Assembly (NCBI GenBank): GCA_023301465.1
Contig: JALZUQ010000004.1
Span: forward strand, 1 to 43,673
Direction of reading: 5' to 3'
Origin: Oligoflexales bacterium
GTDB taxonomy: Bacteria; Bdellovibrionota_B; Oligoflexia; Oligoflexales; JALZUQ01
DNA length: 43,673 nt
Below, one piece after another: positions 7,131-23,173 of the stretch; within the stretch, counting starts at the first letter, position 1; the number at the start of each line of letters is the position of its first letter. A model generated the notes under the pieces. The model worked only from the letters and a program-made list of their open reading frames with translations. It was not told the origin of the DNA and made no database searches. The translations under genes were made by a program, and so were the position numbers.

Positions 7131-7168
7131 AAAAAAACGAGGGTGCAAAAAAGTACCCTCGTTTTTTT
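7131..7168. terminator. Bidirectional terminator between convergent genes
   Basis: aaaaaaacgagggtgc and gtaccctcgttttttt pair over 16 bp (one G-U) around a six-A loop. A-tract before and T-tract after make it work in both directions, ending the propeller gene on the plus strand and the importer operon on the minus strand. Confidence 0.92.
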
Positions 7169-7181
7169 TATGAAAATAAGC

Positions 7182-8915
7182 TCAAGATCGAAAAAGCTCA
7201 CCCATCTTTTTGCCGAGAATAATAGAAGCTCCTAAGATACAAGACGTTAAGATCAACATGGCAATCATTCCCAAAGCACTTGCGACATAAGTTCCACTCC
7301 CTTGTTCTAAAAACAGGGCGTAAATAGCTTTTGTGAGAGGGTAGAATTGATCTTTCATGGCTAAGATCAAACTATCGGAGACGTCAAGCATTGCGTATGC
7401 AAAACACAGCAATGAACCAGCGATCAGGTTTGCAAATACTAGTGGTACAGTGATTTTACGAAGGGTGTAAAATTGGGATGCTCCAAATGTAGAGGAAGCT
7501 TCTTCAAGAGACTTACTAATTTGTTCTAGCCCTGAGCTTGCAGAGCGAACCATGTATGGCAGCCTTCTAATCGCATATGCCATGACAAGTAAGAATACTG
7601 GGTTGGTTAATGGGTCAATAGCCGTATCCGTGTAAGCAACAACATAACCAAACGCTAGCACAATTCCCGGTAGTGCAAGAGGCACCATCACAAGACTGTC
7701 TAAGACATTATGAAAAGGCACAAGTTTTCGAACTACAACATAAGCAACTAAGAGCCCAAGAATTAAGTCTACAATAGTAGATAGTCCGGCAAAGAAAAGG
7801 CTGTTTTTGATTCCGATCACAGATAGTTCTTCGTTAAAAACCATCTTGTAGTGTTCCATGGTGTAGCTATCAGGAAGTGCTGTCATAAACCATTTGTCTG
7901 CAAAGCTTGTGAGGATCACCGACAAATGTGGGATGAGGGCAATCACAACGGTTCCTAGTACAAGAGCGTAGATAGCAGCAGTTCCCCAAAAACCTGACTT
8001 GGGTTGGGAGCTTGTGACATGTCCTTTTGCCATCATTTCATATTTGTTTTTACCAAAGAGGTATTTTGATGATAAAAAGATCGCAACTGTCATGACGATT
8101 ACAACAAAAACGAGGGCAAATCCAACGGGGTTTTGGTTGACGTCTGTCACGAGGTTAAAAATTCTAACAGGCATAGTTTCATGGAAGCCTACAAGAAGTG
8201 GGGTACCAAGATCTGTAAGTGCCCAAATAAAAACAATGATAGATCCAGCAAAATAGCCAGGGCGTGCAAGGGGCCAAGTAATGTCTTTTAGTTGACGCCA
8301 TTTTTTGACTCCAAAAATCGAAGCCATTTCTTCTAGGGTAGGGTCAATGTTTGCAATTGCTGCTGTTAAGTTTAAGTACATAATGGGATAGAGGTGAAGG
8401 ACTTCAAGGATTACAACCGCCCAAAACATATTGCTTCCGCCTAGCCAATCAATGGGTGCTTCAATGATTCCGCTTTCCATAAGCCATATATTTACAGAGC
8501 CATATTTTGCAAAAAACTTTTGGATTCCAATGGCTCCTACAAAAGGAGGCATAACCATTGGGACTAAGAGCAAGCCAGATAAAATGGTTTTTCCACGGTA
8601 TTCATACTTCGCGTTAATGATAGCGAGTGGAAGGGAGATGATAGTCGTTAGAATCGTTGTAGCAATTCCGATCCAAAGGGAATTGACAATGGCACTGGTG
8701 TAGAGTTCATTATCTAGCATGAGGCCAAAATACTGAAGGGTAAAACCTCCAGTTGTAGTGTCAATAAAAGCACTTTTAACAATAATCCAAACTGGCCAAA
8801 CCAAAAAGAAGAAAAGCATCACAAGAGTCATAAGGACAGTGCCATAACCCACAGTGTTAGAAATCATGCGTTTTAGTTTAGAGCTACTTTCGACGGCGTT
8901 AGATTTATTTGACAT
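7182..8915 (-). CDS. ABC transporter permease, fused two-domain FbpB type
   Basis: 577 residues with about 12 membrane helices: two BPD_transp_1 permease domains in one chain, as in FbpB/SfuB/AfuB-type permeases. Each half has its EAA-type loop for the ATPase: LEEMASIFGVKKWRQLKD and LEEASSTFGASQFYTLRK, each followed by a conserved Pro-containing turn (ITWPLARPG, ITVPLVFAN). The inner-membrane protein forms the substrate channel. The start ATG (8913-8915) lies three bases after the ATPase stop codon with no good Shine-Dalgarno of its own, so translation is probably coupled. It is the last gene of the operon. The ferric-iron type is assigned by family resemblance; the substrate is not proven. 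Confidence 0.9.
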   Translation of the reverse strand: MSNKSNAVESSSKLKRMISNTVGYGTVLMTLVMLFFFLVWPVWIIVKSAFIDTTTGGFTLQYFGLMLDNELYTSAIVNSLWIGIATTILTTIISLPLAIINAKYEYRGKTILSGLLLVPMVMPPFVGAIGIQKFFAKYGSVNIWLMESGIIEAPIDWLGGSNMFWAVVILEVLHLYPIMYLNLTAAIANIDPTLEEMASIFGVKKWRQLKDITWPLARPGYFAGSIIVFIWALTDLGTPLLVGFHETMPVRIFNLVTDVNQNPVGFALVFVVIVMTVAIFLSSKYLFGKNKYEMMAKGHVTSSQPKSGFWGTAAIYALVLGTVVIALIPHLSVILTSFADKWFMTALPDSYTMEHYKMVFNEELSVIGIKNSLFFAGLSTIVDLILGLLVAYVVVRKLVPFHNVLDSLVMVPLALPGIVLAFGYVVAYTDTAIDPLTNPVFLLVMAYAIRRLPYMVRSASSGLEQISKSLEEASSTFGASQFYTLRKITVPLVFANLIAGSLLCFAYAMLDVSDSLILAMKDQFYPLTKAIYALFLEQGSGTYVASALGMIAMLILTSCILGASIILGKKMGELFRS

Positions 8916-8918
8916 AGT

Positions 8919-10019
8919 TTAGGTGCCAGCTCCTAAATTTTCATCTGGTTTAAGAATAATCATATCGCTTGGTTTTGCACTACAAAGAATCGTATCGCCT
9001 TCTTTGTAGGAGTGTTCAGGAGAATGAAAGACGTTAGATTTTAGAGAAACCCCTTCATGATCCATCATGAACTGCTCAGATTCACCAAGATAAATAATAT
9101 CACTGAGTACAGACTCAAAGGTGTTTGCGTATTTTTTGTCGTTTCCATCAAAATGAAGTTTGAGGGCTTCTGGTCTTAATGAAACCGTGACAGGGTCGCC
9201 TTCTTTAATATTTGGTTCACAATGCCCGCATTGGAGCTCACCGAATTTTTCAGACATCACAATATGTCTCTTATTGTCTGCAACGCCTTTATAAACACCT
9301 GTCATAAAATTCGTTTCACCAATAAAATTTGCAATAAACGGTGTGGCTGGTCGGTGGTATAGGCCTTTTGGAGTCGATGTTTGTATCAAGCTCCCAGAGT
9401 GCATGACAGAAATATGGGTTCCCATAGATAGAGATTCTTTTTGGTCGTGGGTTACATAAAGAGTAGTAATGCCGGTTTTTTTGTGGATGCGAACAATGTT
9501 TTCTCGCATCTCAAGTCTAAGCTTGGCATCTAAATTAGAAAGCGGCTCATCAAGAAGTAGCATGCTTGGTCTGATGGCAAGAGCTCTAGCAAGGGCAACA
9601 CGTTGTTGTTGACCGCCAGAGAGTTGCCCCGGAAGTCTGTCCACAAAACGTGTTAACTGTGTAAAGTCTAAAACTTCGTCAATACGATTTTTAATTTCGT
9701 CTTTTGAGAGTTTTCTTAGTTTGAGTCCGTATTCAATGTTTTTATAGACAGTCATATGTGGCCACAAAGCATAGTTTTGAAAAACCATTCCAATTCCACG
9801 TTCCGTAGCAGCAAGATTTGTTACATCTTTGTCTCCAAAGAAAATCTTACCTTTGGTAACGGTTTCAAGCCCCGCCAACATACGTAATGAAGTTGTTTTT
9901 CCGCAGCCTGAAGGCCCTAGCAAGAAATGAAGAGCACCACTTTTAATAGTGAGATCTAAGTTTTTAACAGCATTGAAGTCACCGTAACTTTTAGTGACGT
10001 TTTCAAAACGAACCTGCAT
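8919..10019 (-). CDS. ABC transporter ATPase, FbpC/PotA-type
   Basis: 366 residues. Walker A GPSGCGKTT at 35-43, Q-loop VFQNYALWP near 79-87, signature LSGGQ at 133-137, Walker B LLLDEP at 154-159, D-loop SNLDAKLR and H-loop YVTHDQKE are all intact. The last 120 residues form a TOBE-type regulatory domain (VSLRPEALKL). This is the CUT1/FbpC class of importer ATPase, which hydrolyses ATP to power uptake. It sits between the binding protein (17-base gap) and the permease (three-base gap). AAGGA precedes the ATG. Pairs such as CGHCEP near residue 228 are not part of the classical fold and could be a metal-sensing site (inference). Confidence 0.93.
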   Translation of the reverse strand: MQVRFENVTKSYGDFNAVKNLDLTIKSGALHFLLGPSGCGKTTSLRMLAGLETVTKGKIFFGDKDVTNLAATERGIGMVFQNYALWPHMTVYKNIEYGLKLRKLSKDEIKNRIDEVLDFTQLTRFVDRLPGQLSGGQQQRVALARALAIRPSMLLLDEPLSNLDAKLRLEMRENIVRIHKKTGITTLYVTHDQKESLSMGTHISVMHSGSLIQTSTPKGLYHRPATPFIANFIGETNFMTGVYKGVADNKRHIVMSEKFGELQCGHCEPNIKEGDPVTVSLRPEALKLHFDGNDKKYANTFESVLSDIIYLGESEQFMMDHEGVSLKSNVFHSPEHSYKEGDTILCSAKPSDMIILKPDENLGAGT

Positions 10020-10036
10020 AAAGTGAATTCCTTACA

Positions 10037-11338
10037 TTAACCTTTAGAAAGAGATTGGTACTTTGCTTTTGCCTGCTTTGTCCATGTATTTATGGTTTTA
10101 TTTCGAAAAACTTCGTCGTTCCATTTTTTAGAGAATTCATAGAGTTGTTTTTTGGTGATTGGTGGAGCGGCCAGTTTTTGAATGATGGAAGTATGTTTTC
10201 CTTTTTTGACTTGATATGCCCAAGCTTTTTGTAGTTCTTTGTGAGTATCGACTAACACAGCACCAAGAAGGTCACTGAAAATAGTTTGAATACTCGAAAC
10301 CTTTTCCATGTCAATTTTTAAGAAAGCCTTCATTTTGAATGGATTGCTATCAGATAAGCGTTTACCTTCGGTTTGAAGATAAGTGTTCTTGCTAACGGAC
10401 ATTCTACCTAGAACAGCATTTTTTGGGCCTTCTTTGTTGCCTTTTGGAAGGACGAGGAGTTTTTGAGCTTTAGGGCTTAGGACAAAGTTCACGAAACGTT
10501 CTGCTACCAGTCTATTGGGAGCACCTTTGAGGATCGCGATTGGGTCTGGGTCAATCACGGTTTGCCCTTGAGGGAGGGTGAAACCAACGTTTTGTTTGCC
10601 AAGCTTGTCGATAATAGCTGTCGCATAAAAATCAATGGCCATAGCTGCAACAGCATCTCCGCTTTCTACGGCTTTGATGGGGTCGGAGCTTGAATGAGTG
10701 AAGGTTCTTGTATTTCCAGCAATTGCGGTGAGAAGTTCCCAGCCTTTTTGCCATCCCATGCCTTCAAGGATAATAATGTTCATGGTTTTAGCAGAGCCGG
10801 ATCTTCTTGGGTCCGTTAAGGTTACTTGGTTCATAAATTTTGGGTTCGCAAGGTCGGACCAAGTTTTTGGTTCTGGTAGTTTTGTGAGTTTTAAAAGTCT
10901 TTTGTTAAAGAAGACACCAAATGAACTCATTGCAGCACCATGCCATGTGTTATTCTTGCTTCTTAGAGAAATTCCTGCTGCAGATGCTGGAATATCTTTT
11001 GCGATGGTGTCAGGTAATTTATAAGGGGACAACACACCGAGGCCATCAAGTTCGGTAAAGCTAGCAAGGCCACCGCCCCAAAAAATATCTATTCCAGAGG
11101 TTTTTGAATTGCCTTTATATTTTGCTTTTACAAAGCGGATATCATCATTGGTTCCACCTTGATCTAGCCATTCAACCACAACATCTTTTTTGTAGGTTGC
11201 TTTGTAGTGTTTTTTAAACATTGGAATGAATTCACGTTGAATTGACTTCCTATGAGGGGAGATGATCACCACTTTATCTTGTGCAACTAGGTTCATAGAG
11301 AAAGAAAGAAGGAATAAAATAGAAACAATCTTAAACAT
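10037..11338 (-). CDS. Periplasmic substrate-binding protein, FbpA-like
   Basis: 433 residues from the ATG at 11336-11338. A longer in-frame start at 11449 was rejected: the shorter start gives a proper signal peptide (MFKIVSILFLLSFSMNLVAQ) and has GAGAGG upstream. The mature part has the family 1 solute-binding pattern (VVIISPHRKSIQREFIPMF, DIFWGGGLASFTELDGLG, GVFFNKRLLKLTKLPEPKTW, LTDPRRSGSAKTMN). In FbpA proteins two adjacent Tyr bind iron; here only one Tyr is seen in the comparable stretch (AMAIDFYATAII), so the ligand may differ (iron by a different set, or another anion or cation). At 433 residues it is longer than the usual 310-350, with a helical C-terminal extension. First gene of the importer operon. 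Confidence 0.88.
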   Translation of the reverse strand: MFKIVSILFLLSFSMNLVAQDKVVIISPHRKSIQREFIPMFKKHYKATYKKDVVVEWLDQGGTNDDIRFVKAKYKGNSKTSGIDIFWGGGLASFTELDGLGVLSPYKLPDTIAKDIPASAAGISLRSKNNTWHGAAMSSFGVFFNKRLLKLTKLPEPKTWSDLANPKFMNQVTLTDPRRSGSAKTMNIIILEGMGWQKGWELLTAIAGNTRTFTHSSSDPIKAVESGDAVAAMAIDFYATAIIDKLGKQNVGFTLPQGQTVIDPDPIAILKGAPNRLVAERFVNFVLSPKAQKLLVLPKGNKEGPKNAVLGRMSVSKNTYLQTEGKRLSDSNPFKMKAFLKIDMEKVSSIQTIFSDLLGAVLVDTHKELQKAWAYQVKKGKHTSIIQKLAAPPITKKQLYEFSKKWNDEVFRNKTINTWTKQAKAKYQSLSKG

Positions 11339-11466
11339 CGTAAGCCTCTCAAAGAGTAGAATGAAAACGACCATATTTCTGAGGTCGTCGTAGTCTACAA
11401 TAGGATTCAGTTCAGTGAAAGACATGAAAACTAGAAATTCAAACGCCACGCATTAATATAACTATC

Positions 11467-11498
11467 TAATATAATTCAATATAATTCAATATAATTTA
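11467..11498. repeat. Three phased 10-bp AT-rich direct repeats upstream of the importer operon
   Basis: taatataattcaatataattcaatataattta contains atataatt three times at an exact 10-bp period, one helical turn. It lies 130-160 bases upstream of the binding-protein start codon. On the minus strand the units read TTGAATTATA, giving TTGAAT followed 17 bases later by GATAGT as a weak promoter. It could be an operator array or an intrinsically bent promoter segment. Confidence 0.5.
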
Positions 11499-11614
11499 CT
11501 AATCGGTTTGGGTTGTCCCCAAATGGGAATATTTTTGGTGAATTATGAAACAACGAAAGCTGAAATTGATAGAGTGAGGATAGCTATTATTGGAGGCAAG
11601 GTTTCTGCGAACGG

Positions 11615-13060
11615 TTATTCTAACATTAAAGTATTTTGTTCAAACTCCCAAGCAAACTGAAGCCAACCATTTTGGATGCGTGCTACTTTTCCAAAAAAAC
11701 CATGTCCAATATTGGTTGTCTGATCTTTATATATAGGGATGATTGATGGAAGCGGTAGGGTTGGAAGAATGTTACGAACAGCTGTTCTAACGCTGATTTC
11801 CTCGGCGGTGTTTCTAAGCCCAGAAAAAACCTCTGTAAATAGATTATTAGTTTTTTCTCTTTTTTCTGCAGAAGCGGACTCTAAACTGCCAATCTCAAGT
11901 CTCCCATAGGTCTGATATTGGTGGAAAATATATGGGATTTTTAGCACCATTTCTTTTGTGTTTTCTCCATCTTTATAAAAAATACCTTGTATATAAATAT
12001 TGAGAACATTGTTTTGAACTTGAAACTCTATAGCTGGGCTCCCAGTAAAATGGATTCCGGTTTTTCCACTGATAGCATCTTTGGTTGTGTTGTTTTCGCT
12101 TTTAAATAAGTTCATAAATGGAAGTCTGGAGATGATTTGCTCTAAATCAGCATAACTATAAAACCTGTTTTGAATATGGTTGTTAACGAAGTTTTGAAAC
12201 ATAATAGGGTGTACATTGAGTTGTATAGAAGGTTTGTTGAGTCTGATTTCTTGAGGTTCTCTCACATTAAACTTATCTGTAAACATGAATATAAATTTTG
12301 AGGCTGATGTGTGAAATCTGAAGTCCTCAAAGATTTTGAGTGTGTTTTTGTCATAAAAAATTGGATGGATAATGTATTGATACCATGCGTCATTGAGGGT
12401 TTTTAGAATAGGGTCTATTTTTTTTCTAAGCTCCGTTTGATAAACGTTCCAGATCGTGTCTTGAATTTGGTTTTCTATATTCTGAGCGTTGTCGTTATAT
12501 GTTTTTTCTGTGTATTGTTTGACAACAGGTATTTGTTTACCTTGATAGTTTGTCGAAGAGTTTGAACTGATACGATTCGGTGTGTTGACAGAGAACCCGT
12601 TTTTATTGAAGTAAAAGTCTGTAACAGCACCTACGTTGGTATGGATGTCACTATTGAGAAACTTGATTTGCTGCTGGGTAAACCAAGATTTTTTGAATAC
12701 TTCTAAGGTAGTTTTATTGTTAATAACGCTAATGAGGTTAAATTCAATATTCTGAAAATTAGGTGTGGTGCTTATTTTCGAATTGACGGAAGTTGATGAA
12801 ATACCTGTTAATAGTGTTTTCATTTCTTGCATGGGTTTATTGATGTGTTCTGAAAATTCAAATGGGAAGGATCCAAATAAATCAAAAACGGATGTGCTCA
12901 TTTCAATACTAGCAAGTGGGTATAAATCAAAGCGGTAAGAGTTGTTTTTGATTTCACTTGTGCTGCGGTTTTTGCAGCTAAGGATGCCATAAAATAAAGT
13001 ACAAATGAAGGCAGCGGTGACGGCACTTTGTTTAAAAGTCATTTTTGAAAGTGCTCTCAT
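11615..13060 (-). CDS. Lipoprotein of unknown function
   Basis: 481 residues. The N-terminus is basic and hydrophobic (FKQSAVTAAFICTLFYGILSC) and ends in a lipobox (ILSC) with Cys at about residue 29. A start at the second Met (13042) would give a more usual signal length. The mature protein is rich in Asn, Phe and aromatic residues, with alternating hydrophobic positions (QIRLNKPSIQLNVHPIMF, PAIEFQVQNNVLNIYIQG), which suggests an extended beta-rich fold of the lipid-binding or bridge-like type; this is only an impression. I recognise no family. It is separated from the barrel gene upstream by about 95 bases and may share its transcript. Confidence 0.7.
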   Translation of the reverse strand: MRALSKMTFKQSAVTAAFICTLFYGILSCKNRSTSEIKNNSYRFDLYPLASIEMSTSVFDLFGSFPFEFSEHINKPMQEMKTLLTGISSTSVNSKISTTPNFQNIEFNLISVINNKTTLEVFKKSWFTQQQIKFLNSDIHTNVGAVTDFYFNKNGFSVNTPNRISSNSSTNYQGKQIPVVKQYTEKTYNDNAQNIENQIQDTIWNVYQTELRKKIDPILKTLNDAWYQYIIHPIFYDKNTLKIFEDFRFHTSASKFIFMFTDKFNVREPQEIRLNKPSIQLNVHPIMFQNFVNNHIQNRFYSYADLEQIISRLPFMNLFKSENNTTKDAISGKTGIHFTGSPAIEFQVQNNVLNIYIQGIFYKDGENTKEMVLKIPYIFHQYQTYGRLEIGSLESASAEKREKTNNLFTEVFSGLRNTAEEISVRTAVRNILPTLPLPSIIPIYKDQTTNIGHGFFGKVARIQNGWLQFAWEFEQNTLMLE

Positions 13061-14559: not shown

Positions 14560-15654
14560 TTATAGATCAAAATTAGAAATATCAAAGACGTTATAAGTTT
14601 GATAGAGCTGTTGAAGTCTCAGTTCAAGGAGCTTTAAAAGTCTAAGGTTATTGCCGTCTGTCCGTTGTAAGTATTCTTTCTCGTTGCCTAAATGATCCAT
14701 ATACAGGTTAAGGTGCTGGTAACCCTTTAGTTTTGAGCCTGCAATTTTTTGCTTCAGGTTTTCATTGTTAATACACACAATGATAATCTCTTTATAACGA
14801 TTAGTGAAAGCTTTTAATTCTAATAGTTCTAGAGAAATTTCTAACTCTAGATCGGTCATATTTGTGTGTTCGTCAAAAATATAAAACGCGACTCGTTTGT
14901 GTTGGTTTTTTTTGCGTAGGCTAAACTTTGCTGCAATACCGAGTAGGGTTCTAGAGCCAGCGACATAATTACTTGCAGCTACTTTAATGGTTGGAGCTTT
15001 TTCTGAGTGATACTCGACAATACTTCCTTGGTAATTTCCTAAAACAACGCCATGTAACGGAAGTTTCGATAGCGGGTAGTTTTCTTCGGTTTTCATATAT
15101 TGAATATCAATAGCTTTTTGGTTGAGTTTTAGGACAGAATAAAGTGTGGGGGAGGATCCTATTTCTTTAAGGTAGCTATAAATGGCGTACATACGATGAT
15201 GGCCGCCTATGAGTTCTACTCTTTGGATTATCTCTGCTTTATCGAGGTAAACCATTAGTTCCATCGGCTCTTTACCGGCTAAATCTAAGGATTTATCTTT
15301 ATGCAGTAAACGGTTTTTTAGAGATATCATATATCTATAATCACGAGCTAATATGTGCCCGGGTTTAACGAGTAAATGAAAAAGAGGGAATTTTTGGATG
15401 CTTTCTTTAGGTAGGTTAAAGTCCTGAATTTTTTTTGGGTCAAAACCAAAAACTTGCTTAGAATCATCATGTTCAATCGCTTTTAAGGTTGATAGCTCAA
15501 AGCTTGGGTCTTTTGCACCGTTTTTGAATGCGAATTTTTCAAGGCAGGTGTTTGAGTTGATTGTGCTTGCATCAAGTCCATTGCTGAAAATAAAAAAAAC
15601 GGATTGGATAACTAATATAAATATGTTCGTTAACTTGGATGGTTTTACGTTCAA
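14560..15654 (-). CDS. Exported protein with ParB/sulfiredoxin-like motif
   Basis: 364 residues. The N-terminus (KLTNIFILVIQSVFFIFSNG) is a signal peptide or membrane anchor, with possible cleavage near residue 29. The middle has the order found in ParB/Srx-fold domains: a conserved entry (FHLLVKPGHILARDYRYMI), a strand (MELMVYLD) and the phosphate-binding signature VELIGGHHRMYAIYSYL with GGHHR at 150-154. The C-terminal half, with NLYMDHLG and IIIVCINNENL, is unassigned. ParB/Srx domains usually act in the cytoplasm on DNA, nucleotides or phosphorylated sulphur, so an exported copy is odd. It could be a nuclease or nucleotide-binding protein secreted to the periplasm or outside (inference). 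Confidence 0.65.
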   Translation of the reverse strand: MNVKPSKLTNIFILVIQSVFFIFSNGLDASTINSNTCLEKFAFKNGAKDPSFELSTLKAIEHDDSKQVFGFDPKKIQDFNLPKESIQKFPLFHLLVKPGHILARDYRYMISLKNRLLHKDKSLDLAGKEPMELMVYLDKAEIIQRVELIGGHHRMYAIYSYLKEIGSSPTLYSVLKLNQKAIDIQYMKTEENYPLSKLPLHGVVLGNYQGSIVEYHSEKAPTIKVAASNYVAGSRTLLGIAAKFSLRKKNQHKRVAFYIFDEHTNMTDLELEISLELLELKAFTNRYKEIIIVCINNENLKQKIAGSKLKGYQHLNLYMDHLGNEKEYLQRTDGNNLRLLKLLELRLQQLYQTYNVFDISNFDL

Positions 15655-15796: not shown

Positions 15797-16549
15797 CTAG
15801 TTTTTGATGCTGTACCCAATATAACCAAGTGCCAAAGAACTGTTTATTTTGAAGCCAAACTCAGGGGTCACTCGCCTTAAAAATAGACTCTTTAAAAATG
15901 CGGTATTAAACCGAGGGGAAAGCCCAAAGCATTCTTGTTGAGTCAGCGATGCATTGAATTGCATTTTTATAAGCTCTTTGGGTTTAATGAATAAGTGTAA
16001 TACATGCAAGTTCTTTGGTGTGTTTGGCACGAACCACTCCATAAACTTAATGACAATAAGCCAAGATAAGAAATTACGATTAAAAGTGTGAAAGAAAAAA
16101 ATACCACCGGGTTTAAGAATGCGGCTACATTCTGAAATGACTTTTTGCGGGTTTTCTACATGTTCAAGAAAATCCATTGCACATACAATGTCAACGCTTT
16201 GATTGCTAAATGGCAGCTGATAAGCATCACCTACTATATATTTTGCTTCGTGAGCCTTGATGGCCTCATTCTTATTTCTCGCAACATCTAAGGATGCCTG
16301 AGAAGCATCGAGTCCGGTTACGTTTTTATAGCTCATAGCAAGATAGTTGGTTAAGAAACCAGCCCCACAACCTACATCTACAATTTTTATCGTTTCATTT
16401 GAGTCGGGGAAGTGGTCTTTGATTTTTTTCTCAATCCAAGGGTTTTTAGTTTTTTGTTCAGCTCTTAATATTGCGATGGGATCATTGTCCGCTGTGTACC
16501 AAGACTCTCCGAGGTGGTTGTAATAGTCGTTGTTAATTTTTGGTTTCAT
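15797..16549 (-). CDS. UbiG-like SAM methyltransferase
   Basis: 250 residues, cytoplasmic. Class I methyltransferase: SAM-binding motif I VDVGCGAGFL (57-66), acidic strand end GLDAS (79-83), motif II region VGDAYQLPF, motif III ILKPGGIFFFHTFNRN (144-159), and the FNR...VPNTPKNLHVLHLFIKPKEL order found in UbiG-type enzymes, which O-methylate catechol-like intermediates of ubiquinone. Its place at the end of a type III polyketide synthase cluster, overlapping the upstream gene by 17 bases, suggests O-methylation of the polyketide product rather than of ubiquinone. AAGGA lies before the ATG. The ubiquinone role cannot be ruled out from this window alone. Confidence 0.85.
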   Translation of the reverse strand: MKPKINNDYYNHLGESWYTADNDPIAILRAEQKTKNPWIEKKIKDHFPDSNETIKIVDVGCGAGFLTNYLAMSYKNVTGLDASQASLDVARNKNEAIKAHEAKYIVGDAYQLPFSNQSVDIVCAMDFLEHVENPQKVISECSRILKPGGIFFFHTFNRNFLSWLIVIKFMEWFVPNTPKNLHVLHLFIKPKELIKMQFNASLTQQECFGLSPRFNTAFLKSLFLRRVTPEFGFKINSSLALGYIGYSIKN

Positions 16550-16985
16550 ATTTTTCCTTGCGATAAAAATTCCAGTAGTAAATTTGATAAGTCAAAAATA
16601 CAGTTATAACGAGAATTTGTATGTTGATGTATTGGATGTGTGCGTTTTTCCACATCCAAAATAACCCGATCAGTGACAAGGGGTGTATTTGAAACAAAAA
16701 GGCATGTATAATGTTTTCTTTTGGTGAGCATTCTTGTGTATGAATGAATTCATCTTTAACGATAATAATGCAAGATAAAGCTGCACAAAGAATAAAAGCC
16801 CACAGGTTAGAGTGAGAATATTCAAAAAAACTAGCAATAAAAAAGCAGACTAAAAAGCATAAAGTGTCTATAGGATGGCCTTTGGATTCCCATTTGCCAA
16901 GTCCTCTAAGATGATGAAAGTAGAATTCGTCTACCATCATCAAGGCTCCTTGAATGAACCAAATGCTAAAAACAATCAACGCCAT
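16533..16985 (-). CDS. Small His/Glu-rich membrane protein in polyketide cluster
   Basis: 150 residues with about four membrane helices. Two similar acidic/His motifs follow two helices: DEFYFHHLRGLGKWE (19-33) with GHP (36-38) and D40, and KDEFIH (77-82) with E86, E90, H94 and HP (101-102). This DEF-x-H duplication, with further Glu and His at the membrane face, looks like a metal site, as in membrane diiron enzymes, though I recognise no family. Start: ATG 16983-16985 keeps helix 1 but has AGGAG 13 bases away; the ATG pair at 16935-16940 has AAGGAG five bases upstream but would lose helix 1. It overlaps the polyketide synthase end by 10 bases and the methyltransferase by 17. Confidence 0.75.
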   Translation of the reverse strand: MALIVFSIWFIQGALMMVDEFYFHHLRGLGKWESKGHPIDTLCFLVCFFIASFFEYSHSNLWAFILCAALSCIIIVKDEFIHTQECSPKENIIHAFLFQIHPLSLIGLFWMWKNAHIQYINIQILVITVFLTYQIYYWNFYRKEKYETKN

Positions 16986-18019
16986 GCTTTGAATATTGCT
17001 CCTATTACAGTAAGTCCGGGTCCAAAAGCTACGCTACATACATACTCTCTAGAGTCTTGGTTTAAAATATCTTCCCAAATATGAGGTAATGTTGCAGATG
17101 ACATATTACCACGGTTTTGTAGGATGTTTTGCGAGTATTGAATCTGTGTGGTTGAAATTTTTAGTTTTTTTTGAATGAGTTCAATGATCTTTGGTCCGCC
17201 GGGGTGGATTGCAAACTGTGCCTTGTCTTTGTCTTTTTGAAAATTTAGGCCTGCTTTTATGAATAGTTTTTGTATAAACTGGTCTATGTTTTTTTCTATC
17301 GTGTTTGGAATGGAAGTAGCTAACGTCATTTTAAAACACTGAGGTGCAACGTTCCAAGTCATATCTTCACTTGTGTTAGGGATGATTTCTTCGGCAATAG
17401 TGATAACCTCTAAACCCGAGCTTTGAGATTTTTTAAATGACGATTCGTTAAGTGAGGAATATCGAATTGCCCCATCTGCAAAGAGCGTGTTCACAACAAT
17501 TTGCTCTGGTGAGCTGTTATTTCTGTCTAAGTGAAAACTACATAACTCACTATGAACAATATCTACAGCATCAGAATTTAGTGCGTTAAGTCCTCTAGCG
17601 TGGTGTATTGCAGGAAAAGCAGCATAGCAACCCATGTGATACAAATGCCTTACACTTGTTTGGGAATGCCATTTTTTATCTACAACGAGCTCTTGTGCAG
17701 CAGAAGGTGAGCGGTAGTGAGTACAACTAACATGAAGTAAGTGAGCCGGCGTGGGGTGAGTGCGTTCTTCATAAAGTTCTTTAAAAATCAAGTTTATGGT
17801 TTTTTGGGCGACTTCACCTCTCGAGTTTATCGTGGGGTTTGTGTTGTTATAGAGCGAGTAAATATTTTCAGGTTTGTGAGTGCTTGAGCCAACACCTGTT
17901 AAATCATAAAATTTTCGTTTTTGTATAAACTTAGGTGAGACTGAGAAGCGTTTTACATATTTGCTTCTAGATTCAGGGTAGTATTTTGTTAGCCAATCAA
18001 TGATATCTTGTTGATCCAT
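16976..18019 (-). CDS. Type III polyketide synthase (chalcone/stilbene synthase-like)
   Basis: 347 residues, normal for the family. The catalytic triad is visible: Cys131 in YHMGCYAAFPAIHHARG, His272 in AIHPGGPKII and Asn305 in QNRGNMSSATLP. The GPG loop near the C-terminus (AFGPGLTVIGAI) is intact. Such enzymes load an acyl-CoA, extend it with malonyl-CoA and cyclise it to alkylpyrones, resorcinols or similar. The starter cannot be told from sequence. It is the first gene of a cluster with a membrane protein and a methyltransferase, all overlapping, so the likely product is a methylated, possibly membrane-associated polyketide. The start ATG at 18017-18019 has only a weak ribosome site. Confidence 0.93.
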   Translation of the reverse strand: MDQQDIIDWLTKYYPESRSKYVKRFSVSPKFIQKRKFYDLTGVGSSTHKPENIYSLYNNTNPTINSRGEVAQKTINLIFKELYEERTHPTPAHLLHVSCTHYRSPSAAQELVVDKKWHSQTSVRHLYHMGCYAAFPAIHHARGLNALNSDAVDIVHSELCSFHLDRNNSSPEQIVVNTLFADGAIRYSSLNESSFKKSQSSGLEVITIAEEIIPNTSEDMTWNVAPQCFKMTLATSIPNTIEKNIDQFIQKLFIKAGLNFQKDKDKAQFAIHPGGPKIIELIQKKLKISTTQIQYSQNILQNRGNMSSATLPHIWEDILNQDSREYVCSVAFGPGLTVIGAIFKAWR

Positions 18020-18625: not shown

Positions 18626-21600
18626 TTATCTAATCCAAATTTGATGATGTGTGTCTTTTGTAAATGTAACGGCTTGATCATCACACTCCCACCGATTACC
18701 TTGACCTTTTATACCCCAGTGTCTCTGACCTGTTCTGAAAAAAGGGAAGTTGGTCATCGCAGCATCACCTTGATTCGCAAAAGAATTGTTAATAATAGAG
18801 ATTAATAATGCTGTATGATCTGGTAGCGAATTAAAGTTATTAGTATAAGTGGTTCTGTTTATAGAGCCTGTTCCAGCTTTATAGTATGAGGCTGTGTTAG
18901 GGTCTGTTACCCAAAAATCCATCATGCGGGGATTCCCTGATGTTTGGCAAAAATACCTTGTGTCCGTAAAATTAAAATGATTCATCAGTGCGTTTCCTGC
19001 ATGGCCCCAAGAAGTTGTTGAAGCACTTTCATTTACTCCTAAAGTGGATGAGTCTGGAAGTGGCAAGTTGGTTGTTTTTACAAGTAGAGCAGGGTTTGTG
19101 CCACCATCATGAAGGTAATTGAGAACCATTGTCCAACCACCACCTGCTGTTGTCATATCGCAGTAAGCATCAAAAGCTGCTAGCGGACCAAAACCATCAG
19201 GGTCTATCTGGTAAACTCCATCTTTTAAAGTTGGATCTGCGTCTAAATAAGATTTGCAACTTTCAGGAACTATGCTCAAGACAGTTATCTCAAATAATTC
19301 ATGAGCAATTTGTAAACTGCTATCGATTGCTGAGATGTCAATGATGGTCGCTCCTTCTTTTTCTAAGGTGGTAATATCGAGTGTGTATACACCAGCTCCA
19401 ATATGAGTTGCTACTAAGTTAGCGTCAGGAACAATCGTTTGATCGCTTGAGTTTATAGAAACATTTAGAGTTCCAGCTACGTCAAGATCATCAAGTACGG
19501 TGAAGCTGATCTGTCGAGTGGTTGCTACATTAATATTTTGATTTACGATGTTTTGTGCAAAGTTGGGCTTGCCATCGGCTGCTCCACAAGGAGTGCTAAT
19601 AATATTAGCTCGTGTTGGTACTCTTACAAGATCGACTGTAAAGCCTGAAGTTGGTGTGTTTCCATTAGCCGTATCTGTTAGCATGTTTCTTAAAACAGCC
19701 TCAGAACTATTAGTGCCTATGTATGTGCCTGAAGCATCATAAATATTATTTGCATTACCTGAGTTTGCATTTGCCCTGAAGTGAGCGTTGGAGAAAGACG
19801 CAGCTGTTAAATCATTATTCATAAAGCTTGAGCAATTTCCGGTGGTGCTGTTGCCAACAAAAGCAAGTTCTGCACCCGTACCAAAGTTGCCTGTGTATGT
19901 ATTTCCATGAACTTGACAGTCAACTGTTGAACCAGAAGAAATAGGCCAACACGTTAACACTGTCCCTGATGTACCGCCTAAAGTATTTCCATTTATTCTG
20001 AGAAGGTGATTAAAAGATGATTTCATTCCGAAAACTCGAATATGGTTAGTTGTGTTTCCAGTAATGGTGTTGTTATCAATAACTACATTTCCTTCATATG
20101 TTCTGGCATAAATACCAAATGAAGTACCTACACCGGCTTGTGTAATATTATTATCAGCAATACTTATTGGGCTGTGTCCTAAGTATTCAATTCCTCTTGT
20201 TCGAGTGCCAGTTAAGGTGTTTCGAGAGATTTGTATTTCACTTTTTTCAGTGCCTGTTATTGGGGTTTCTATCAGTATCCCAACCGTATTTGTGGTTGAA
20301 ATAATATTATTATCAATAGTAATATCTGATTCAGTGTTGTTTTCATTGACGATCACATTAATAATACTAGCTGAAAAAGCATCTGCAGATCCCTCCATGG
20401 TATTATCAAAAATATTTACTGTTGATCGTGCAGCGCCTGTAGATGTTCCGTTACCCAAAGTGATGTCTATTGCTGTGTCAGAAATACTTCCAACGACAGT
20501 GTCACTGAGAACGTTGCCATATATGTGAAAATTTGCTGTGTTATCACCGGTAGTAGCTAAAGTTATTATTTCAAACAATGATCCTTCTGTGGTGTTGTTT
20601 CGAATAATAACATTCCCACTAATATTTGCTATATTAAGTACTCTATCACAAGCTTTAAATTGATTGTTTTCGATGGTGATGTTGTCAACCTCGAGAGCAC
20701 TATGAAGACAATGACCACCATTAGTATCGTCAATGGCGATTCCTCTGATTTCTAGATCATCTGCCGAAATTGCTACTGATCTTGAACCACCACCGGCAGG
20801 GCCTATGACTGGGTGGTTGCCAACTGCAACAACTGTTCTGTTTAAGAGTTTAAGTCCAGACCCTTCACCGACAACTTTTAGGCCGTCGTGTTCCAGTGCA
20901 AGCTGGTTGTTTTGATTTGTATTGCTTCCGTCACCTTCATAGATAAATATATATTCATCTTCTTTTGCTGCAGTTTCAGCGTCATCTAAATTATCAAAAG
21001 GTGCTGTAAATCTCCCATCTCCGTTTGAAGGCTCATTATTTTGAACGAACCATACCATCTCTTGGATTTGTACAGAAACAGTAGCTGATGCTTGGTTTCC
21101 TAGAGCATCTGTTATTTTATAGGTAAAAGTATCTGTGTCGTCAGTAATACCAATAGGCGGGTTGTAAGAAAAACTACCGTCAGCAGCAATATCAACGATT
21201 CCACCTAAGGAAGTTGCAACATTTGATTCAGCTATAAGAGTAACGGGTCCATTTGTGTCGGCGGATGCATCATTCTCGCTTAGCGTGTTTAAATCAATCA
21301 TTGTACTTACTAACTGTACATTGCCAATGGCTCCATTATTTCCAGTATAGCTATCATCAACAGCAGAAGGAGCTAATGTATCTAGGTCAATATCAACAGT
21401 TGCAGCAGTGCTTGAATTACCAACTGTATCAACTCCAGTAACACTAATGGTTTCGTTACTGACATCAATACCAGAGTCAAAAGTAACAGCAACCGAATAC
21501 ACACCGCCAACGCATGCAGCAACAACAGGGTCTGATGCGATGTTTGGACTTGTGATAGAGACTGATCCAGAGTTATCGCATGTACCAGTTACAGTTGTAT

Positions 21601-22600
21601 TCGAAAGGTTTGTTCCTGCTGTAGGAGCAGTGATTGTTGGTGTAGCTGGAGCTGATATATCGACATCGATCGCGACAGTTGCAGCAGGTGATTCATTGCC
21701 GGCACTATCTTCTTGAGTAACAGACAAGCTTTCCGTGTTGCCGTCTGCACCTGTAGTCCAAGTGACAGTTGTAGAGTATGTACCGCCAGTACATGTAGTT
21801 GTCGTTGGGTTTGGAGTAATATTAGAATTGGTTATTTTTACAGTGGTTCCTGTTTCGCAGGTGCCAGATACAGTAGTAGGGTTTGTGACAGTTTGTCCTA
21901 TAGTTGGACTAGTTATGCTTGGAGCAGCTGGAGTTGAAAGGTCAATATTAATGGGATTAATGATAATTGGTGTTGAGTTATTACCTAAATCATCACTTGC
22001 TACAACAGATATGCTCTGTGATGAGCTATCCGCACTGGAATTCCATGTTATTGGAACGTTTACAGCTGTTGTTGAGGTACAAGTATAAGTTGTAGGATTA
22101 GGAGTGATTTCATTATTTGTAATAGTGATAGTAGAGCCAACTTCATCACAGGTGAGATTGATGAACGCAGCATTGCCAATAGTAGATCCCGGCATAGGGG
22201 AACTGACAACGACACTAGGGGCAGTCGTATCAATGAAAGTTGTAGCCTGCTCGACTTGTTCTCCATCTATGTTGGTGTTGATGATTTGTTCTGTGTTAAC
22301 TCCACTGTTAAAAGTAATGTTTTGCTCGTAAGTACTAGATGCTGGGCATACAAATTCAGTAGGGTTTGGAGTGATCTCAGAATTTTCTAGAACAATTTGT
22401 GTGCCTGCTTGACAACTGCCGTTAATAACTAAGGTGCCTGCAAAAAAATTTTTAACTTCGGATGTAAACCCGATACTAGCTCCTTGAGTCACCTCATCAA
22501 AGCTAGGAATGCTATCGACATTAATCTCAGGAGAGTCTTGAGAGCCAATTTTCTCTGGATCACCAAGTAAATTAAAGTCTTTTCCGCAAGATTGCAGCAT
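18626..22600 (-). CDS. Giant Ig-like/beta-helix protein with fibrinogen-like C-terminus
   Basis: 1324 residues from ATG 22598-22600 (AGAAGAAG upstream); the frame is open to 22762 but that part is antisense to a LysM gene. Domains in order: four Ig-like repeats of about 93 residues (37-409), each with the same C..G..I.ITN..ITPNP...C pattern; a cadherin-like/VCBS-like unit (411-520, SYNPPIGITDDTDTFTYKI); a right-handed beta-helix (about 525-990, repeated IxxNxITxN turns); and a fibrinogen/intelectin-like C-terminal domain (last ~215 residues: CKSYLDADPTLKDGVYQI, AYCDMTTAGGGWTMV, ending with HHQIWIR). Such modules serve binding to other cells or glycans. A Cys at residue 5 (LQSCGKD) resembles the first residue of a lipoprotein, but no hydrophobic signal precedes it. 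Confidence 0.88.
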   Translation of the reverse strand: MLQSCGKDFNLLGDPEKIGSQDSPEINVDSIPSFDEVTQGASIGFTSEVKNFFAGTLVINGSCQAGTQIVLENSEITPNPTEFVCPASSTYEQNITFNSGVNTEQIINTNIDGEQVEQATTFIDTTAPSVVVSSPMPGSTIGNAAFINLTCDEVGSTITITNNEITPNPTTYTCTSTTAVNVPITWNSSADSSSQSISVVASDDLGNNSTPIIINPINIDLSTPAAPSITSPTIGQTVTNPTTVSGTCETGTTVKITNSNITPNPTTTTCTGGTYSTTVTWTTGADGNTESLSVTQEDSAGNESPAATVAIDVDISAPATPTITAPTAGTNLSNTTVTGTCDNSGSVSITSPNIASDPVVAACVGGVYSVAVTFDSGIDVSNETISVTGVDTVGNSSTAATVDIDLDTLAPSAVDDSYTGNNGAIGNVQLVSTMIDLNTLSENDASADTNGPVTLIAESNVATSLGGIVDIAADGSFSYNPPIGITDDTDTFTYKITDALGNQASATVSVQIQEMVWFVQNNEPSNGDGRFTAPFDNLDDAETAAKEDEYIFIYEGDGSNTNQNNQLALEHDGLKVVGEGSGLKLLNRTVVAVGNHPVIGPAGGGSRSVAISADDLEIRGIAIDDTNGGHCLHSALEVDNITIENNQFKACDRVLNIANISGNVIIRNNTTEGSLFEIITLATTGDNTANFHIYGNVLSDTVVGSISDTAIDITLGNGTSTGAARSTVNIFDNTMEGSADAFSASIINVIVNENNTESDITIDNNIISTTNTVGILIETPITGTEKSEIQISRNTLTGTRTRGIEYLGHSPISIADNNITQAGVGTSFGIYARTYEGNVVIDNNTITGNTTNHIRVFGMKSSFNHLLRINGNTLGGTSGTVLTCWPISSGSTVDCQVHGNTYTGNFGTGAELAFVGNSTTGNCSSFMNNDLTAASFSNAHFRANANSGNANNIYDASGTYIGTNSSEAVLRNMLTDTANGNTPTSGFTVDLVRVPTRANIISTPCGAADGKPNFAQNIVNQNINVATTRQISFTVLDDLDVAGTLNVSINSSDQTIVPDANLVATHIGAGVYTLDITTLEKEGATIIDISAIDSSLQIAHELFEITVLSIVPESCKSYLDADPTLKDGVYQIDPDGFGPLAAFDAYCDMTTAGGGWTMVLNYLHDGGTNPALLVKTTNLPLPDSSTLGVNESASTTSWGHAGNALMNHFNFTDTRYFCQTSGNPRMMDFWVTDPNTASYYKAGTGSINRTTYTNNFNSLPDHTALLISIINNSFANQGDAAMTNFPFFRTGQRHWGIKGQGNRWECDDQAVTFTKDTHHQIWIR

Positions 22601-22675
22601 GATGCTTCTTCTGTAAATATAGATTCGGAACGATCTTTTTTGCAGCATACTTATCATCCAGAGGTGATGAGTAGT

Positions 22676-23173
22676 GTGAAAAAGCCTTTTATTTTTCAAG
22701 AGAAAGTCTATGCAGAGCACGTATCTCCAAGCCAGAAGCATCAGGTAGCACAACTCGTACATAAATTAAAACGAAGAGGTGCTAAAGGAAAAATAATGAA
22801 GAAGCTTGCATTGAAACAGACAGAAATAGCTACTCATACACCAAAAATTATAAAGAGTTATTCTAATAAAATTAAAGTAATAACGAAAAAAGCCCCTAAA
22901 AAATCAAGCCAATTCATCGCTAGTAAGTTCAATAAAAAAACATTCAAAGTTGTTCGTAGTTACGCAGCTAAGAGTCCGCAGCAGTATACCGTAAAGCGTG
23001 GAGACACTCTAAAAAGTATTTCTTCAATGGTGTACGGAACAGATCTGCTATGGGAAACCATATACAAGATCAATAAAAAAACGATTGGAGATGACCCTGA
23101 TCAATTAAAAATGGGGCTTTCTATTAATACGGGGAGTAGTCTCACCAAACAAAATATGGGTCTTGCCCATTAA
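22676..23173 (+). CDS. LysM-domain protein
   Basis: 165 residues from the GTG at 22676, which has GAGGTG ten bases upstream; ATG 22667 abuts that ribosome site and an upstream TTG (22592) lies antisense in the coding part of the giant gene, so the start is uncertain. The N-terminal 100 residues are strongly basic and helix- or linker-like (LVHKLKRRGAKGKIMKKLALKQ, AKSPQQ). A LysM domain fills the C-terminal third (YTVKRGDTLKSISSMVYGTDLLWETIYKINK). LysM binds peptidoglycan or chitin-type glycans. No signal peptide is seen with any of the starts. It is divergent from the giant surface gene and ends at a bidirectional terminator shared with groL. Confidence 0.65.
   Translation: MKKPFIFQEKVYAEHVSPSQKHQVAQLVHKLKRRGAKGKIMKKLALKQTEIATHTPKIIKSYSNKIKVITKKAPKKSSQFIASKFNKKTFKVVRSYAAKSPQQYTVKRGDTLKSISSMVYGTDLLWETIYKINKKTIGDDPDQLKMGLSINTGSSLTKQNMGLAH

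Follow-up and report, generated by a model that had tools for sequence, protein, structure and literature searches.

The window analysed here, a 43,673-nucleotide stretch of DNA from an Oligoflexales bacterium, contains three minus-strand genes in overlapping frames (15797–18019). They encode a type III polyketide synthase (PKS; 16976–18019, 347 aa), a predicted five-helix membrane protein of an unnamed family, which we call MEM (16533–16985, 150 aa), and a UbiG-type SAM-dependent methyltransferase (MT; 15797–16549, 250 aa). The tight partnership is that between PKS and MEM, and MT is a frequent third member. We consider it a serious possibility, falling a little short of an even chance, that the three genes form an operon making an oxidised, O-methylated long-chain phenolic lipid, in which MEM would be the ring hydroxylase and carry a metal site. 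The first-pass annotation had described a synthase, a membrane protein and a UbiG-like methyltransferase in overlapping frames, and the coordinates bear this out, with overlaps of 10 nt between PKS and MEM and 17 nt between MEM and MT. A genome search found a single PF02797 gene and a single MEM gene in the source genome.

The surrounding genes on the same strand include a 1,378-aa surface-type protein (18626–22762) that combines bacterial Ig domains with a right-handed beta helix and has a weakly fibrinogen-C-like end, and whose listed start is probably too far upstream. A 364-aa protein (14560–15654) has no Pfam match and carries, after a signal-like N-terminus, the string GGHHRMYAI, which recalls ParB-type motifs. 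Further away lies an ABC importer operon (7182–11449; binding protein, permease and ATPase) that resembles the iron type.

The synthase and its predicted product

PKS matches PF02797 with an E-value of 5.8e-22, and the intact Cys131-His272-Asn305 triad claimed for it is present; the triad is complete in all 40 PKS rows compared. A Cys-His-Asn triad in a chalcone synthase-type protein of thiolase fold identifies the enzyme as a type III PKS. The closest solved structures are those of Azotobacter ArsC, wild type and G284W mutant (1.4e-58), and Trp222 of PKS aligns with the introduced Trp of the mutant (3vs9), which is the position of Trp281 in ArsB. It has been reported that Trp at the ArsB position favours resorcinol formation and Gly in ArsC favours pyrone, and that G284W shifts ArsC towards resorcinol (PMC6274091). 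PKS thus has the ArsB-type residue that favours aldol closure, and shares both this Trp and the triad with its nearest solved kin, the Azotobacter alkylresorcinol and alkylpyrone synthases ArsB and ArsC. Trp222 and the full triad are found in all 19 MEM-linked PKSs; most other PKSs of the compared set also have Trp at this position, which is therefore no marker of the MEM group. Together, the sequence and the ArsB-type Trp suggest that PKS is of resorcinol type and predict an alkylresorcinol product. The likeness to the Azotobacter enzymes does not extend to the gene neighbourhood of two plasmid-borne Ars-like clusters that we inspected, where the synthases lie beside a type I PKS and neither MEM nor a UbiG-type MT is annotated.

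MEM, a membrane protein that accompanies the synthase

Our survey for MEM covered 58 genomes of one phylum and one metagenome-assembled genome (MAG). MEM is found in 17 of the 58, and a further relative occurs in the MAG, which is labelled Bacteriovorax stolpii; the 18 relatives belong to Bacteriovoracia and nearby groups. A single-protein scan of genome contigs returned this one MAG, and a plasmid search returned no homologues. A type III PKS is present at all 19 MEM loci and is the direct neighbour at 18 of them, with gaps of −10 to +43 nt; at the one exception (L026) two genes lie between. MT adjoins MEM at 12 loci, overlapping it by 17–41 nt in every case, and seven loci have no adjacent MT. 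The membrane protein had been placed in a type III PKS cluster, and the neighbourhood survey supports this, tying MEM to PKS rather than to MT. The synthase itself is more widespread: proteins matching the PKS profile occur in 29 of the 58 genomes. Within the MEM clade of PKSs, some clusters have no MEM (L080 and L081, with an unknown 328-aa protein; L082 and L083, with MT only; and L084, alone), which implies that the PKS product can be used without MEM.

Two observations on these loci may be recorded here. The protein that follows the MEM-clade PKS in two of them (L080:4146–5132 and L081:6244–7191; 315–328 aa) has no Pfam match, and 11 further genomes of the phylum have weaker relatives of it. 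In the Bacteriovoracaceae (L010–L018, L021 and L022), genes for a glycosyltransferase of family 9 and a GNAT acetyltransferase often lie upstream of PKS-MEM.

By the evidence of the libraries searched, MEM is an unnamed family. None of the 19 members has a match above chance level in Pfam, NCBIfam or PHROGs, and the MEM profile has none among PDB sequences; the candidates that surfaced, SNaCT5 (0.012), FTN_0109 (0.0024, in two of 19 members), BioY and PsaK, are all chance-level matches. A Foldseek search of the MEM model against PDB and BFVD gave no significant match, the best being the iron-binding protein 6n63 (E-value 1.6). Bestrophins fill the top rows of VIA-align (Z ~10), but they share no sequence kinship with MEM and fall below the level trusted for helical bundles, and the resemblance is one of common helical arrangement. 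No recognised oxygenase signature is found in MEM. There is no PF03232 (COQ7) match in the 19 members, and the COQ7 ligand pattern E, ExxH, E, ExxH is not there: in the 19-member alignment E79-x2-H82 is the only ExxH, and the other pairs are ExxxH. The membrane fatty acid desaturase/hydroxylase superfamily is characterised by three histidine boxes, HX(3-4)H, HX(2-3)HH and HX(2-3)HH; MEM has five invariant His, none of them boxed in this way.

The invariant columns of the alignment are D19, E20, H24, R27, E33, G36, H37, D40, S71, K77, E79, H82, E90, H94, L97, F98 and H101. D, E and H account for 11 of these 17 columns and for 19 of the 150 residues, at a median pairwise identity of 34% (hypergeometric p ~5e-8, a value that ignores the generally higher conservation of D, E and H); there is one invariant Arg and one invariant Lys. 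Conservation of the DEF-x-H residues in homologues had been set beforehand as one of the points on which the proposal for this protein could fail, and the D/E/H conservation is strong. The motif itself, described as duplicated, needs some revision, as the second copy (D78–H82) is exact and the first (D19–H24) reads DEF-x2-H. Moreover, relatives have G, W, A or V in place of its F, and D78 falls just short of invariance. An internal duplication as a proven event was rejected after the profiles of the two halves were compared (hhalign P = 0.035; shuffled columns equal the score in six of 100 trials), and the likeness of the two halves appears to lie in the motifs and the order of helices.

The AlphaFold2 model built from the 19-sequence alignment (mean pLDDT 93.5, pTM 0.87) has five helices (2–27, 31–53, 58–85, 88–113 and 117–149) where four had been described for this 150-residue protein; a single-sequence model of one relative (pLDDT 64) has the same five-helix layout. 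Helix 1 ends in D-E-x3-H and helix 2 starts with E-x3-H-x2-D; helix 3 has D-E-x2-H near its end and helix 4 starts with E-x3-H-x6-H, so that each of helices 1–4 bears an E-x(2-3)-H pair. Because neighbouring helices are antiparallel, the four sets would lie at one face of the membrane, a placement deduced from the helix order of the model. The K+R count is 4.0 in the loop between helices 1 and 2, 2.3 at the C-terminus and 0.7 in each opposite loop, which suggests that the motif face is cytoplasmic. In a helix-wheel test of each helix the E, H and D residues share a face, clearly different from random only for helix 4 (p 0.02; helix 2, p 0.06). Taken together, the conserved D/E/H residues look like a metal site, and MEM may bind metal.

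Flavoenzyme clusters and alternative roles for MEM

Other type III PKS operons are known to combine a PKS, a methyltransferase and an oxidising enzyme. In Planctomycetota they comprise PKS, methyltransferase and an oxidoreductase annotated as FAD-dependent (PMC10896814), and in actinobacteria PKS-MT-oxidoreductase operons make polyketide quinones (PMC9927152). We found similar operons on Psychrobacter and Deinococcus plasmids, with a methyltransferase and an oxidoreductase annotated as FAD-dependent. The pkqABC and srsABC operons resemble the present one in joining a type III PKS and a methyltransferase that act on an alkylresorcinol (PMC9927152), but their oxidising enzyme is a flavin-type oxidoreductase or hydroxylase, whereas here there is a small D/E/H-rich membrane protein and no FAD relative. 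The hierridin and planctomycetal PKS-MT-FAD clusters likewise have the same three-function layout, with an FAD oxidoreductase where this operon has MEM (PMC10896814). MEM would thus seem to occupy the place expected of an oxidising enzyme. The argument is a positional one, and it is weakened by the fact that MEM and the FAD enzymes accompany different PKS clades.

The second PKS clade of the phylum is well separated (SH-aLRT 100). In seven clusters (L089–L095) its synthase lies beside a membrane methyltransferase of the ICMT family (PF04140), and five of these also contain an FAD monooxygenase (PF01494). No relatives of the ICMT or FAD proteins are found in the MEM clusters, and at a threshold of 1e-3 the five FAD enzymes have none in the window or at the MEM loci; the FAD oxidoreductase of Srs/Pkq-type clusters is accordingly missing from both. 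Elsewhere in the source genome, flavin monooxygenase-type genes (PF01494) give weak matches only. Since MEM and the FAD/ICMT pair accompany different PKS clades, MEM is, judging from these sequence comparisons, no simple replacement of a flavoenzyme within one orthologous cluster. Two of the clusters compared have features of their own. Short ORFs that resemble an acyl carrier protein and the beginning of an acyl-activating enzyme come after the PKS-ICMT pair in L092, and in L087 a very long ORF (7149–11999) follows the type III PKS, its start resembling, by eye, a non-ribosomal peptide synthetase condensation domain.

The conserved D/E/H residues, the link to PKS, the resorcinol-type synthase and the lack of a flavin hydroxylase in MEM clusters make a metal-dependent hydroxylase the best reading of MEM. 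In the pathway that we propose, PKS would extend a long-chain acyl thioester with malonyl-CoA and close it to an alkylresorcinol, which would lie in the membrane, its ring placed at the cytoplasmic face. There the E-x(2-3)-H pairs, one on each of helices 1–4, would form a metal site, most likely dinuclear and perhaps di-iron, with which MEM would use O2 to hydroxylate the ring, the job of the FAD monooxygenase in Srs/Pkq-type clusters. MT, as kin of the quinone O-methylase UbiG, would methylate a ring hydroxyl, and the pathway would end in an alkyl (methoxy)hydroquinone or quinone lipid. The metal, the O2 chemistry, the substrate and the product are all inferred. That MEM is an oxygenase or hydroxylase acting on the polyketide had been proposed from the outset and stands as the best reading; the accompanying proposal that it acts before O-methylation is not supported, given the seven of 19 MEM loci without adjacent MT and a genome (G025) that has PKS-MT without MEM.

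Two other roles deserve consideration, each of which we regard as improbable, at roughly one chance in five. MEM could be a metal-dependent enzyme of this pathway that works without O2, for example as a hydrolase, thioesterase, decarboxylase or isomerase, and that frees the PKS product at the membrane or alters its form. The same conserved D/E/H set and PKS linkage would fit such an enzyme, E/H/D sets are also found in zinc hydrolases, and with MT dispensable MEM could act at the step of PKS release. A type III PKS usually carries out the release and cyclisation of its product itself, however, and members of the same PKS clade are found without MEM; one mononuclear zinc site also needs fewer than four E-x(2-3)-H pairs. 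MEM could equally have no catalytic function, serving as a membrane anchor for PKS or as a flippase or carrier for the lipid, with its conserved polar residues engaged in salt bridges or making up a transport path. Membrane proteins that are small and have several helices often act as partners or transporters, and MEM stays beside PKS with or without MT. Yet 11 invariant D/E/H residues gathered at one end of the helices, in a family of such low median identity (34%), are typical of a catalytic or metal site, and Arg and Lys contribute just one invariant residue each.

Quinone genes and the place of the methyltransferase

An alternative that concerns MT alone is that it belongs to ordinary ubiquinone biosynthesis and lies beside PKS incidentally. 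The enzyme had been described as UbiG-like, and it scores 136 bits against the UbiG equivalog model TIGR01983 (cut-off 102.95), which speaks for this alternative; it is the only protein of the source genome to exceed this cut-off. The other quinone genes point elsewhere, with the proviso that the genome is a draft (96% complete) and gene absences in it are not final. In this draft we found no match to COQ7 and no MenD above cut-off. The UbiA genes resemble heme o synthase and MqnP/UbiA-like prenyltransferases, with no 4-hydroxybenzoate octaprenyltransferase above cut-off among them; the MqnP/UbiA-like gene adjoins UbiX, and there are two MqnC-like matches, both below the MqnC cut-off. These genes suggest that the organism probably makes menaquinone by the futalosine route. 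The MqnC-like and MqnP/UbiA-like genes, together with the lack of COQ7 and of MenD above cut-off, make a ubiquinone role for MT unlikely, and the overlap with MEM at all 12 MT-bearing loci also speaks against an incidental position. We therefore give the ubiquinone alternative very little credence, and the sole UbiG-type gene is likely to be dedicated to the PKS product.

Ubiquinone biosynthesis nevertheless offers a parallel for the hydroxylase reading of MEM. If MEM is a hydroxylase, the operon would resemble the COQ7/UbiG steps, where a UbiG O-methylase is likewise paired with a metal hydroxylase associated with the membrane. The two hydroxylases would differ in kind: MEM has no sequence match to COQ7, is predicted to be an integral membrane protein, and has E-x(2-3)-H on four helices as against E/ExxH/E/ExxH.

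More speculatively, and in our view rather less probable than the operon's proposed function, MEM may found a new structural class of integral-membrane oxygenases with a di-metal site. Its four-helix core, supplemented by a fifth helix, would bear four E-x(2-3)-H pairs, and in relatives of predatory bacteria it would make polyketide quinones with no flavoenzyme involved. If the proposed function is correct, it would add a compact family of membrane oxygenases that is missing from the family libraries searched, together with a way of turning alkylresorcinols into quinone-type lipids that involves no flavin. In actinobacteria, polyketide quinones have been reported to serve as alternate electron carriers when oxygen is low (PMC9927152), and the same proposal, if true, would suggest a second, lineage-specific quinone in Bacteriovoracia.
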